DNA of 64,000 nucleotides, taken from assembly GCF_030866765.1 (NCBI RefSeq), contig NZ_CP133017.1, forward strand, positions 1,889,001-1,953,000. Direction: 5' to 3'. Shown piece by piece: positions 14,887 to 58,751 of the stretch. The translations under genes and the position numbers were made by a program. Source of the DNA: Paenibacillus silvisoli. GTDB taxonomy: Bacteria; Bacillota; Bacilli; Paenibacillales; Paenibacillaceae. Position 1 is the stretch's first letter. Each line of letters opens with the position of its first letter. The notes under the pieces are model-generated. The model saw only the letters and a program-made list of their open reading frames with translations, was not told where the DNA came from and made no database searches.

Positions 14887-14998
14887 TTCTTATCAAGAGC
14901 AGGCGGAGGGACTAGCCCGATGAAGCCCGGCAACCGGCGTGTAAACGTACGGTGCTAATTCTTGCGGAAACGATTCGTTTCTGAGAGATGAGAGGCGC
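14887..14998 (+). promoter_or_regulatory. SAM-I riboswitch (S-box)
   Basis: The aptamer begins with CTTATCAAGAGCAGGCGGAG and continues with GGGACTAGCCCGATGAAGCC and CGGCAACC. It ends with ACGGTGCTAATTC, then GAGAGATGAGAGG, which pairs with the 5' strand in P1. All hallmark S-box segments are present. With SAM bound, the following terminator should form and switch off metA-metI-metC. Confidence 0.97.
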
Positions 14999-55851: not shown

Positions 55852-56451
55852 TTAATAGAGTGCGCCGGCTTGAATCAGTAGGTTCGCAATGTCGTGATAA
55901 CGTCTGCGTCTGGCGTGAGTCAAAGGCGTGACATCGTCGTGATCCGCCAAATGGACATCGGCGCCGTGCTCGAGCAGCAGGCGGACGACTTCGATATGTT
56001 CGGGGCTTCCCGTGCCGAGAATGATGGCCTCCAATAACGCGGTCCATCCGAGATTGTTGACGTGATTGACGTTGATGTCGCTGTTCGTGAGCAGCTCGCG
56101 CACGACGTCGACGTAGCCGTGCTCCGATGCCGGAATCAGCGCAACGCCGCCGTACCGGTTCGTAATGCGCGTATTGGCGCCGGCCGCGAGCGTCAGCCTC
56201 ACGATCTCCAAGTAGCCCTCCGCTCCCGCGTACAGAAACGGGTTATCGAGCTTGTGATCCTGCTTGTGCAAGTCGGCGCCGGCATCGATCAGCAGCTTGA
56301 CGATCGCCGGATTGTTCGCGTGCGTTGCGGCCAGCATCGGCGTTCTGCCGCGTTCGTCGACGGCGTTCATATCCGCGCCTTGCCCGATCAGCGCTTGCAC
56401 GGCGGCGGCATCGCGCCGCTGGATGGCTTGAAACATAGGAGTAATAGTCAT
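55852..56451 (-). CDS. Ankyrin-repeat protein
   Basis: This 199-aa soluble protein is made almost only of ankyrin repeats, about six, with typical segments GADMNAVDERGRTPML, NPAIVKLLIDAGADLH, YVDVVRELL, HIEVVRLLLEHGADVH and DVTPLTHARRR. It probably mediates protein-protein contacts; the partner is unknown. ATG 56451 has AGGAGG 11 nt upstream, while GTG 56463 overlaps that site. Confidence 0.85.
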   Translation of the reverse strand: MTITPMFQAIQRRDAAAVQALIGQGADMNAVDERGRTPMLAATHANNPAIVKLLIDAGADLHKQDHKLDNPFLYAGAEGYLEIVRLTLAAGANTRITNRYGGVALIPASEHGYVDVVRELLTNSDINVNHVNNLGWTALLEAIILGTGSPEHIEVVRLLLEHGADVHLADHDDVTPLTHARRRRYHDIANLLIQAGALY

Positions 56452-56549
56452 AGCGGATCGCACCTCCTGATCATGAATAGCATAGAATTCAATTATACAA
56501 GTTGCGGATCCCCGCGGCTATGTGATATGGTTAGAGAAATTCGGCAAAG

Positions 56550-56713
56550 GAGGTGTGAGGTAGGATGAATACAGAAATGGTGAACAACCGAGTGAGCCAG
56601 CTTCCAATTGCGATGGCTGGCATCGTGCATGCTTTTGGACGCTACGTGAGAAGTCTGTCCAAATTCGCCGATACGGCACCATTATCTATGCGAAGACGCC
56701 TACCTTAGACCTC
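56550..56713 (+). promoter_or_regulatory. Leader element: SD region pairs with the 3' end of the leader frame
   Basis: GAGGTGTGAGGTAGG (56550-56564, just before the leader ATG) and CCTACCTTAGACCTC (56699-56713, across its stop codon) can pair at 14 of 15 positions, one of them G-U. Together with the terminator that follows, this suggests alternative RNA folds controlled by ribosome position. Confidence 0.55.
56565..56708 (+). CDS. Putative leader peptide of the ABC-F gene (47 aa)
   Basis: A 47-codon frame starts at an ATG preceded by AAAGGAGGTGTG and ends 20 nt before an intrinsic terminator, upstream of the ABC-F gene. The peptide begins MNTEMVNNRVSQLPIAM and ends SMRRRLP. The RRR at codons 43-45 is a +X+ motif at which macrolides and ketolides stall ribosomes in known erm leaders; ErmDL contains the similar S-M-R-L-R. 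No database homology could be tested. It may be a regulatory leader rather than a functional protein. Confidence 0.6.
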   Translation: MNTEMVNNRVSQLPIAMAGIVHAFGRYVRSLSKFADTAPLSMRRRLP

Positions 56714-56727
56714 GATCGGGAACTACC

Positions 56728-56765
56728 GAAGAGTCGCAGGGCATTTTCCTGCGGCTCTTTTTTTG
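56728..56765 (+). terminator. Attenuator terminator between leader and ABC-F gene
   Basis: AAGAGTCGCAGG pairs with CCTGCGGCTCTT, followed by T7. It lies 58 bp upstream of the ABC-F start with no clear promoter between. Confidence 0.85.
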
Positions 56766-56822
56766 TACCGTTCCATGGCGCGAAGGAGTGTACGTCTTCC
56801 TAACAATTGGGAGGATTCCATC

Positions 56823-58751
56823 ATGATTATCGTGAGCGGTCAACATATTCAGAAATACTACGGCGCAGAGCTTGTGCTCGAGGATGTCACGTTTGAAATA
56901 CAGGAGACGGAGCGGGTCGGCCTGGTCGGCCGCAACGGGAGCGGCAAATCGACGCTGATGTCGCTCATTGCGAAGCTGGCAAAGCCCGACGGAGGCCAGC
57001 TGACGATCCGCAAGGATACGAAGGTCGGATACTTGGCGCAAATTCCCGACGCGTGGGAGGACAAATCCGTATACGAAGTGCTGGCATCCGGCTATGCGGA
57101 GCTGTTGGGATGCAAGGCGCAAATGACGCGGCTCGAGCAAGAAATGTCCGACCCGTCGGTCGACGAGCGGCAGCTGGAGCAGCTGCTGCAAACGTACGCG
57201 CGGCTTCAGGAGCGATTCCAGCAGGAAGGCGGCTATGAGCTGGATGCGGGGATCGATACGGTAGCGACGGGGCTGCATATTCCGAAGGAGATGTACGATC
57301 GGCGCTACGGCACCTTGTCCGGCGGGGAAAAGACGAAGCTCGGCCTTGCGGCGCAGCTGATCGGCAAGCCCGACATGCTCTTGCTCGACGAGCCGACCAA
57401 CCATCTGGATTTGGAAGGCGTCCAATGGCTAGAGACGTTTTTGAACGGCTATGAGGGCGCATGCCTGATCGTTTCCCATGACCGGATGTTTCTGGATCGG
57501 GTCGTGACCAAAATCATCGACATTGAAGACGGGGAAGCGGTCACCTATTTAACGAGCTATACCGGCTACGTGAAGGAGAAGGAAGAGCGTCTGCTGCAGC
57601 AGTTCGCCGAGTATCAGGAGCAGCAGAAGGTCATAAAGAAGATGAAGGAAACGATCAAGCAGCTACAGGAATGGGGCAGACTCGCCGGCAACGAGAAATT
57701 TTTCAAGCGTGCCGCGTCCATGCAGAAGGCGCTTGATCGGATGGAGAAGGTGAAGCGCCCGGTGCTCGATCCGAAGGGGGCGGAGTTCCAGCTGAGTCTG
57801 GCGGACCGCTCCGGCAAACGGGTGCTGGAGCTGAACGGCGTCAGCAAGAGCTATGGCGCTCGCCAATTGTTGGACGCAGCCGACGGCACGCTGCTGTACG
57901 GCGAAAAAATTATGCTGCTCGGCCGCAACGGCACCGGCAAGACAACGCTGTTCAAGCTCATTCTCGGCACGGAAACGCCGGACACCGGCACGGTCGATAT
58001 CGGAGCGCGCGTTGAGATCGGCTATCTGGCGCAGCAGCAATACCCGGATGACGAGAAGAAGAGCGTGCTCGCGTATTTCCGGGAGGCGGCAGGCATGGAA
58101 GAGGGCGAAGCCCGCTCGCATTTGGCGCGCTATCTGTTCTATGGCGGCGACGTCTTCAAAGGCGTCAGTCAGCTGTCCGGCGGCGAATGGACGCGGCTGC
58201 GTCTGGCGCTGCTCATCTTGAAGAAGCCGAATATGCTGCTGCTCGATGAGCCGACGAACCATATGGACATCGCCTCCAGAGAGGCGCTGGAAGAAGCGCT
58301 GGAGGAGTTCCCGGGCACGATTTTGGCGGTTTCCCACGATAGATATTTCATCAATCGGCTGGCGGATAAAGTGTGGGAGCTCGACCGCGGCAAATTGACC
58401 GTATATATTGGCGCGTTCGACGATTATGCCGAGAAGCGCAAGCAGCTCCGCGATGCCGCGCAGGGTGAACCGGAGGCAGCGGTAAAAGCAAAGACGGCTT
58501 CAAGTGCGAATACGAAAGCCGCTTCGAGTGCGAGCGCAACCCATACGTCGCAAACCGCTGCCCGTAAGCCGGACCCGTCGAAGCTGGAACGGCTGATCGG
58601 AGAGGCTGAGCACCGCCTTGCCGAGCTGGATACGGAGCTGCAGAAGCAGGCCGATCAAATGGACTCGGAGGCGATTGCCCGGCTATGGCAGGCGCGCGAG
58701 CTGGAGCAAGCGCAGCTCGATGAGCTGTACGCGCAATTGATGGAGCCATGA
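56823..58751 (+). CDS. ABC-F family ATPase (translation factor / ribosome protection type)
   Basis: The 642-aa protein has two ABC domains and no membrane part. Walker A motifs are GRNGSGKST (about residue 39) and GRNGTGKTT (about 371). Signatures are LSGGEKTKL and LSGGEWTRL. Walker B regions end in DEPTNHLD and DEPTNHMD. The interdomain linker (about 240-320) includes WGRLAGNEKFFKRAASMQKAL, and a charged, Ala/Ser-rich C-terminal extension ends in a coiled coil. ABC-F proteins bind the ribosomal E site; some confer resistance to macrolides, lincosamides or pleuromutilins. GGGAGG lies 8 nt before ATG 56823. The upstream leader and terminator support a resistance role but do not prove it. Confidence 0.9.
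   Translation: MIIVSGQHIQKYYGAELVLEDVTFEIQETERVGLVGRNGSGKSTLMSLIAKLAKPDGGQLTIRKDTKVGYLAQIPDAWEDKSVYEVLASGYAELLGCKAQMTRLEQEMSDPSVDERQLEQLLQTYARLQERFQQEGGYELDAGIDTVATGLHIPKEMYDRRYGTLSGGEKTKLGLAAQLIGKPDMLLLDEPTNHLDLEGVQWLETFLNGYEGACLIVSHDRMFLDRVVTKIIDIEDGEAVTYLTSYTGYVKEKEERLLQQFAEYQEQQKVIKKMKETIKQLQEWGRLAGNEKFFKRAASMQKALDRMEKVKRPVLDPKGAEFQLSLADRSGKRVLELNGVSKSYGARQLLDAADGTLLYGEKIMLLGRNGTGKTTLFKLILGTETPDTGTVDIGARVEIGYLAQQQYPDDEKKSVLAYFREAAGMEEGEARSHLARYLFYGGDVFKGVSQLSGGEWTRLRLALLILKKPNMLLLDEPTNHMDIASREALEEALEEFPGTILAVSHDRYFINRLADKVWELDRGKLTVYIGAFDDYAEKRKQLRDAAQGEPEAAVKAKTASSANTKAASSASATHTSQTAARKPDPSKLERLIGEAEHRLAELDTELQKQADQMDSEAIARLWQARELEQAQLDELYAQLMEP

Follow-up and report, generated by a model that had tools for sequence, protein, structure and literature searches.

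What controls an ABC-F gene that has no evident promoter of its own and is preceded by a short open reading frame (ORF) and an intrinsic terminator? The question is raised by a locus of Paenibacillus silvisoli within a stretch of 64,000 nucleotides (contig NZ_CP133017.1, positions 1,889,001 to 1,953,000), which as a whole is referred to here as the window and supplies all coordinates unless another locus is named. A first-pass annotation of the window had proposed that the leader of this gene is an undescribed attenuator whose peptide, ending in SMRRRLP, senses macrolides or related antibiotics. Comparison with related loci points to a codon-selected ORF, to a fold made up of helices P1, P1b, P2, and P3, and, within the Paenibacillaceae, to coevolution of an alternative pairing termed X:D. 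The leader is conserved, translated, and most likely operated by ribosomes, and judging from these sequence comparisons, we think it probable that it is a cis-acting, ribosome-operated attenuator of a ribosome-protection-type ABC-F gene.

Organization of the locus

Every element of the order described in the first-pass annotation is present on the forward strand. The leader Shine-Dalgarno (SD) sequence, GGAGG by direct reading (56549 to 56553), lies within segment 1, termed A, and within the 5' strand of P1. The leader ORF (56565 to 56708) opens with ATG, runs for 47 sense codons (MNTEMVNNRVSQLPIAMAGIVHAFGRYVRSLSKFADTAPLSMRRRLP), and closes with TAG at 56706 to 56708. Twenty nucleotides 3' of this stop begins the intrinsic terminator (56728 to 56760), a stem of 14 pairs followed by a T run, in which 8 of 10 counted pairs are doubly changed in relatives. 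The ABC-F gene itself (56823 to 58751) starts with ATG and encodes an ATPase of 642 amino acids. The annotation saw no clear promoter for this gene, in agreement with a pattern scan of 56760 to 56822 that returned no TTG..TANNNT promoter-like pair. The candidate sits 5' of the leader, where a promoter-like TTGCGG-N18-TATGGT (56502 to 56531), recognized by its match to the consensus, is predicted to drive leader transcription; such a pattern precedes the leader in 99 of 107 nonredundant relatives, compared to a shuffled mean of 8.9. These 107 leaders were drawn from 149 of the 150 loci introduced below (one was too long).

The ABC-F protein matches the NCBIfam model NF000355 ("ribosomal protection-like") at 495.4 bits (cutoff, 380) and falls under the cutoffs of the named resistance models Msr, Vga, Lsa, Sal, OptrA, and CplR, the best of which is Sal (365 versus 725 bits). 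By sequence, its closest relatives of solved structure are EttA-type factors. The host genome (6.73 Mb), for which the best named protein match is from P. montanisoli (83%), contains nine further strong ABC-F-type matches (L002 to L010, in our numbering of loci), the best-scoring of which is 36% identical. Paenibacillus sp. strain LC231 encodes an ABC-F that is 55% identical to that of the window and 92% identical to the leader-bearing P0260. From this strain, TaeA is described in the excerpted text of its report as a single-polypeptide ABC protein conferring tiamulin resistance in Escherichia coli, with values tabulated as 1,024 against 64 (PMC5155152). The LC231 ABC-F may be TaeA; if P0260 is TaeA, pleuromutilins would be the first candidate drugs.

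Conservation of the leader with its gene

The leader peptide is present in 20 of 22 genomes of the genus, counting the source genome, and directly precedes the ABC-F ortholog in every one of the 20. A profile built from 17 leaders matched (E ≤ 0.1) in 311 of 394 genomes of the family and in 216 of 296 genomes of the order, two samples that overlap. In all 150 loci examined, 142 of which were chosen by their leader and 8 by their ABC-F, a same-strand ABC-F match lies downstream of the leader. Thirty genomes, picked from those with no leader match (29) or only a weak one (G013), were also surveyed with the ABC-F. No ABC-F match above 41% identity was found in 27 of them, and the other three carry an ortholog at 52 to 54% together with either a diverged leader having full folds (L251 and L252) or a remnant (L253). 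Within the sampled genomes, the leader and the ABC-F gene are present or absent jointly.

This distribution bears on the nature of the trigger. General translation stress (amino acid shortage, polyproline pausing, or cold) could act on the leader instead of a drug if the ABC-F were a housekeeping factor, a role that would suit the EttA-type relatives and also TaeA, a Paenibacillus Uup that is described in excerpted text as ordinary among Uups. We regard such a trigger as rather unlikely, however, since gene and leader are both absent in 27 of the 30 genomes, unlike a housekeeping factor, and since a hairpin motif shared with other leaders (see below) stands mostly before genes of the ribosome-drug-resistance type.

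As a separate observation, inspection by eye of L253 (genome G381, positions 700 to 1500) revealed a stretch resembling segment X of the leader about 800 nucleotides upstream of the ABC-F gene, with several hundred extra bases between the two.

Translation of the leader ORF

Is the leader ORF translated? None of the 107 nonredundant leaders has a stop in codons 2 to 33, whereas the other two frames are interrupted by stops in 76 and 89 of the sequences. Codon changes involving a single base are synonymous in 58% of cases in the ORF frame, versus 18% and 16% in the others. The start codon, be it ATG, GTG, or TTG, keeps a constant place in the leaders inspected. By these comparative measures, the leader ORF is under codon-level selection and hence translated.

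Selection appears to act on different features along the ORF. Third positions vary mostly freely in codons 13 to 22 (LPIAMAGIVH), from which we infer that the amino acids of these residues are selected. At codons 27 to 32 (AAC GGG AGA AGT CTG TCC), codon use is nearly invariant, and because nearly one codon is used at each position, selection there acts on the nucleotides. The C-terminal part shifts in frame and in length (43 to 57 amino acids).

Leader fold and coevolution

In the window, the segment from 56548 to 56715 folds at −60.1 kcal/mol (z score, −3.8), and none of 200 shuffled sequences folds as low. The minimum-energy fold contains P1 to P3, the terminator, and a hairpin of 10 pairs that covers the ABC-F SD. 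P1 joins the SD and the bases before the start codon (56550 to 56564) to the 3' end of the leader (56699 to 56713) by 14 pairs, reproducing the 14 of 15 complementary positions counted in the first-pass annotation. P1b joins codons 3 to 6 (56573 to 56582) to codons 38 to 41 (56677 to 56687), P2 is the hairpin GCCAGC...GCTGGC over codons 11 to 19 (56596 to 56621), and P3 is a hairpin over codons 24 to 33 (56634 to 56663). Segment 2, termed X (56690 to 56713), has the 3' strand of P1 as its 3' half; its partner is segment 1 or, among relatives, segment 3, termed D (56793 to 56803). Within D, positions 56793 to 56799 are complementary to positions 56692 to 56698 of X, and positions 56794 to 56803 pair with segment 4, the ABC-F SD region (56807 to 56816, with GGGAGG at 56809 to 56814), to form the 10-pair hairpin.

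A scan of 741 segment pairs in 28 divergent leaders returned, among the strongest coevolving pairs, mostly ones that fit a single architecture, namely, P1 (SD and start with X), P1b (codons 2 to 10 with 34 to 42), P2 (codons 11 to 19), P3 (codons 22 to 35), and X:D. Individual helices were assessed by comparing native with species-swapped duplex energies, a test that permutes species and partly removes phylogeny, on segments chosen after viewing the sequences. The alignment used, A2, holds 70 of 73 selected leaders (L038, L173, and L178 are left out and L036 is shortened), and tests involving D cover 67 of these (L172 has no SD match, and L195 and L232 have no D). For these 67 leaders, native and swapped energies are −20.3 and −18.1 for P1 (z, −9.8), −13.6 and −9.0 for P1b (z, −14.3), and −17.5 and −13.5 for X:D (z, −11.7), and the z scores of P2 and P3 are −5.3 and −6.6, respectively; six control pairings gave z scores of −0.7, 0.1, 0.2, 0.5, 2.7, and 3.2. 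In 15 leaders below 70% identity, the five helices retained z scores of −3.7 to −6.9.

Pair counting in A2 gives partial support for the fold. Double changes occur in 29 of 45 pairs, compared to 19.5 in shuffled alignments, and covariation is 0.197 versus 0.154 (0 of 500 shuffles as high; slid versions reach at most 0.133). P2 is paired in 98% of cells, with double changes in three of its five pairs, P1 is paired in 77.5%, and P1b and P3 are paired in 40 to 45%, apparently because of slippage in the plain MAFFT alignment there. Covariation computed for individual column pairs with average-product correction was uninformative, being dominated by phylogeny. Applied to A2, RNAalifold returned P2 and the terminator alone (12 pairs), and the long-range helices therefore rest on the scan, the pairwise tests, and the pair counting.

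Could the RNA alone do the sensing, as a riboswitch or a protein-binding element in which the ORF is incidental? The compact three-way fold and the almost single-codon use at codons 27 to 32 would suit such an element, as would L302 and L307 to L310, in which the ORF stops before the P3 motif described below and the motif is still kept. Codon-level selection across codons 2 to 33 and the start codon in its place nevertheless make this explanation quite unlikely. Rfam searches of the whole window, 18 leader loci, and 12 further loci gave no match to a leader at the gathering score, which counts against known riboswitches only.

Alternative pairing and the terminator

How could this fold control the ABC-F gene? 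A and D compete for X, which cannot pair completely with both. When the leader was masked in the folds of 67 relatives, the expected number of X:D pairs rose from 0.35 to 11.6 (higher in 62 of 67), and the mean openness of the ABC-F SD rose from 0.28 to 0.44 (up in 47). In the window, X:D consists of 7 complementary bases plus flanks and reached 5 pairs at most in masked folds.

The first-pass annotation also expected ribosome position to change the fold next to the terminator, but no antiterminator was found. As an antiterminator, X was rejected: its duplex with the terminator arm (X:T5) is no better than species-swapped ones (z, +0.5) or shuffled ones, surpassing 95% of shuffles in 3 of 70 leaders. 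Among the best 45 pairs of the 741-pair scan, the 5' arm of the terminator is absent, and three pairs involve its 3' side (z, −2.4 to −3.1). We do not claim antitermination, because the terminator was unaffected by any mask tried; partial read-through or some other means may carry the polymerase past it.

A macrolide or ketolide sensor stalling at SMRRR, with X as the antiterminator, would have in its favor the R-R-R close to the end of the window's leader ORF and a P3 motif that is common to ErmDL-type leaders elsewhere. However, SMRRR was rejected as a stall site, as it occurs in only 1 of 150 leaders. RRR occurs in 54 of the 150, and no conserved R/K-x-R/K arrest motif (the ErmDL-type +x+) was found, with such a sequence present within the last 12 residues of 64 leaders. 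A single frame holds the core of X (CCT[AG][CT]C) in 122 leaders, other frames hold it in 20, and it was not located in 8. Macrolide sensing is not indicated, because SMRRR is unconserved and amino acid-level conservation is found in residues 13 to 22 instead. Given also the X:terminator pairing that is no better than swapped or shuffled, a sensor of this kind is highly improbable. Across loci, the paired segments coevolve and the SMRRR codons are not conserved. What stands of the original proposal is the attenuator-type leader before an ABC-F gene, with a conserved, translated ORF, alternative pairing, a terminator, and a coevolving helix between the SD and the leader 3' end.

The RAxF-45 family in Bacilli and Listeria

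How widely does this leader type occur? Relatives of the peptide bear the NCBI name RAxF-45 (NCBIfam NF041642; Pfam PF28050), a curated family with no function in its name or description. NF041642 is matched by 15 of 17 aligned leaders of the genus, and 9 of 10 tested Paenibacillus relatives score above its cutoff of 27 bits. Relatives that are 60 to 72% identical to the window peptide exceed this cutoff (e.g., P0014, 34.9 bits), and the window peptide itself has no NF041642 match at E ≤ 10. On sequence similarity, it is homologous to RAxF-45 members without being a match to the model. None of six leader peptides scanned against Pfam gave PF28050, the label on the relatives being precomputed. 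Literature searches found no paper under the name RAxF-45 and, among the titles listed, none on this leader.

When RAxF-45 was searched in 398 genomes of the class, 142 matched, 59 of them over the cutoff, covering 47 of 146 genera, and none of 14 controls did. Leader-bearing ABC-Fs form one clade with respect to paralogs and other ABC-Fs (support, 99/97; 99% of bootstrap trees) in a tree of 33 leader-bearing and 28 other hand-picked sequences. In the 30 best-scoring RAxF-45 loci of the 142 matching genomes, an ABC-F with 42 to 49% identity to that of the window always lies downstream, and the P1-P2-P3 folds recur with unrelated stem sequences; 29 of the 30 satisfy a simple P1 rule (L305 failed). 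Across 41 nonredundant leaders outside the Paenibacillaceae, z scores are −16.8 for P1 plus P1b, −12.3 for P3, and −3.1 for P2 (n = 19), compared to −2.0 (n = 19), −1.3, −0.5, and −0.4 for controls. Among 40 weaker hits picked by hand, 26 have a clade-type ABC-F downstream, L331 has a partial one, L333 and L349 have an Msr-type ABC-F, and 11 have none in the stretch; a looser scripted rule counts 29 with an ABC-F. In the window, the unit has an in-frame leader, the SD within P1, P2, P3, and a same-strand ABC-F of the clade. Two further features were seen at individual loci: a thiamine pyrophosphate riboswitch in the RAxF-45 locus L308 (2762 to 2868, forward strand; 78.2 bits) and, between the leader and terminator of L295, a GC-rich insertion of more than 100 nucleotides relative to the near-identical leader of L293.

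Curation as a protein family (NF041642) might suggest that RAxF-45 functions as a small protein in its own right, perhaps as an ABC-F partner, and that the pairing is ordinary translational autocontrol. We find this very unlikely, since the C-terminal third is free in frame and length, the peptide is just 26 amino acids long in one genus, and residues 11 to 22 are replaced in L251.

In Listeria monocytogenes (L311), the ABC-F gene beside guaB has an RAxF-type leader (MFLLNARTSIAKFLYIVRAIF...) that folds in the same manner, together with X:D complementarity (−22 kcal/mol) and a terminator. Judging from its neighbor guaB, this gene is probably lmo2760. The RNA preceding lmo2760 is RliI, which the excerpted literature describes as a small RNA with trans targets and, in a review, calls a putative conditional terminator; the excerpts do not mention a leader peptide (PMC8079631, PMC11394854). 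With these shared features, the Listeria RliI-lmo2760 locus probably belongs to the leader type described here. The switch is thus undescribed in the sense that no function has been assigned to this type of peptide, but NCBI curates peptides of this type as a family, and the Listeria relative seems to be the known RNA RliI.

A hairpin motif shared with other resistance leaders

P3 carries a conserved hairpin motif, ACGGGANNNGTNTGYCC (56644 to 56660, with one mismatch), which we propose as a putative RNA polymerase pause element. At one mismatch, the motif has 2 matches in the window versus 0.09 expected. The window has CCAAATTC 3' of the P3 hairpin, many Bacilli relatives have a T5 to T6 tract, and a NusG-type TTNTTT after the pause hairpin is not present in the window. 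Exact matches to the pattern ACGGGANNNGTNTGYCCNTTTTTA lie at 55 places, spread over 49 of 398 genomes, and its reversed control occurs in none. Contexts were examined for 38 of the 55 places. An ABC-F like those of this clade (42 to 57% identity) follows in 23, and 8 places lie behind ErmDL-like leaders (one with no downstream ORF in the stretch). The others are associated with another ABC-F (3 places), FexA-like pumps (2 places), Cfr (1 place), and a flavin mononucleotide (FMN)-riboswitch-like leader of ribD (1 place). When 10 of the proteins were compared with profiles, Cfr (606 bits), Erm (232 bits; L343), and RibD (418 bits) were over their cutoffs; the best matches to Msr, Mef, Mph, FexA, other ABC-F, and 23S G745 methyltransferase profiles were below theirs, several of the proteins being partial.

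The weak RAxF hits also gave nine leaders, ErmDL-like by eye and of the MTHSMRLRFPTLNQ type (L333 to L336, L340, L341, L343, L347, and L349), in which the P3 motif is present and the RAxF peptide is absent. Peptide, hairpin, and motif are near constant in these leaders, which stand before macrolide-resistance-type genes of several kinds across different genera, a pattern that would fit exchange of the leader as a cassette. Leaders of the FexA-like (L380 and L383) and Cfr (L353) loci are about 50 codons long and have the motif in another frame than RAxF; those of L380 and L383 share K.VSGD...TG.VCPFL. In L364 (about 1400 to 1524), the hairpin and T-tract motif lies in the ribD leader recognized by eye as FMN-riboswitch-like, the sole nonresistance context of the 38.

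We read the motif as a transcription signal because it is kept regardless of frame, after stops, and in a riboswitch-like leader. By analogy, the hairpin with its T tract would resemble the NusG-type pauses of vmlR, tlrB, and msrD. In the window, a pause is the weakest link of the proposal, given the one motif mismatch and the lack of TTNTTT. A broader proposal, which we hold tentatively and at somewhat less than even confidence, is that the GGGANNNGUNUGYCC hairpin with its T tract is a common RNA polymerase pause signal of Bacilli leaders of 50S-drug resistance genes (this ABC-F clade, another ABC-F, cfr, fexA, erm, mph, msr, mef, and rlmA-type genes) that makes the polymerase wait for the sensing ribosome, and that RAxF-45 leaders, RliI included, form one large unrecognized class among them.

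Proposed mechanism and relation to known attenuators

How might a ribosome operate this leader? Polymerase would start at the leader promoter and pause on reaching the P3 hairpin motif, long enough for a ribosome to begin the leader ORF. With no drug, the ribosome would complete the ORF, P1 would close and prevent a second round, and the terminator would act; in read-through RNA, D would conceal the ABC-F SD. A 50S-targeting drug would arrest the ribosome early (codons 1 to 25, most likely at residues 13 to 22), in which case ribosomes would occupy the leader SD, P1 would stay open, and the freed X would pair with D ahead of synthesis of the ABC-F SD, leaving that SD exposed.

Several observations weigh against a ribosome-operated attenuator of this design. 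Masking closed the ABC-F SD further in 9 of the 67 relatives. In the window, this SD is unpaired at only 0.00 to 0.06 under all ribosome masks tried, and the terminator retains 12 to 14 pairs under every mask, so that neither read-through nor SD release emerges from the computed folds; X:D could prevail kinetically there, D being made before the SD. Coevolution of D with the ABC-F SD (D:SD2) is weak (z, −2.3), as is that of X:D outside the Paenibacillaceae (z, −2.8; n = 39), where the controls R5:D1 (−1.3) and P2a:R3 (−2.0) lean alike. L251 lacks the block of residues 11 to 22, and L252, L037, L040, L198, L199, L223, L231, and others carry an altered version; the block is therefore not indispensable. 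Finally, the species-permutation duplex test leaves part of common descent in its signal, a concern that the strict-identity subset of 15 leaders and the null controls are meant to address.

The pairing logic has precedents. Translation attenuation of ermC involves four segments that alternate between 1:2/3:4 and 2:3 pairing. The logic proposed here is the same, and the alternative 2:3 pairing (X:D) coevolves in the Paenibacillaceae and kin; the differences are that a terminator lies between segments 2 and 3 and that the SD of the leader itself serves as segment 1. A brief summary of ermC attenuation is found in excerpted text of PMC10219788. Published leaders of similar logic, as excerpted, include those of vmlR (PMC9226507), tlrB (PMC6851288), cplR, and msrD. 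In the excerpt on vmlR of Bacillus subtilis, an upstream ORF lies in a 5' hairpin, and there are an intrinsic terminator, a hairpin concealing the SD of an ABC-F gene, and an alternative pairing that frees the SD, with polymerase pause sites (PMC9226507); the SD-sequestering hairpin has its counterpart in the 10 pairs of 56794 to 56803 with 56807 to 56816. The vmlR upstream ORF has only 3 codons (MIN), however, compared to about 45 here, and an antiterminator is proposed and supported there (PMC9226507), whereas none was found here. For tlrB (yxjB) of B. subtilis, excerpted text describes an SD-sequestering structure that also closes the leader ORF, a terminator, and pausing that allows time for leader translation, but its leader has 9 codons and ends in RYR (PMC6851288), and no R-x-R is conserved here.

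Two neighboring features complete the picture of the window. A divergent ankyrin-repeat protein is encoded on the reverse strand immediately upstream of the leader promoter (55852 to 56463), and an S-adenosylmethionine riboswitch (RF00162; 81.7 bits) lies on the forward strand at 14887 to 14994.

Implications

The leader type is far wider in Bacilli than the first-pass annotation saw, and it gives RAxF-45, a curated small-protein family with no assigned function, a testable role. It also suggests that the Listeria RliI is an ABC-F leader with a peptide of its own. The hundreds of species that carry such leaders provide a large natural alignment in which constraint on peptide and on RNA is separable base by base. 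If the shared hairpin and T tract are a pause signal, then the timing of transcription and translation, beyond the stall peptide, would be conserved and common in inducible 50S-drug resistance, and a single motif could find such leaders in unannotated genomes.

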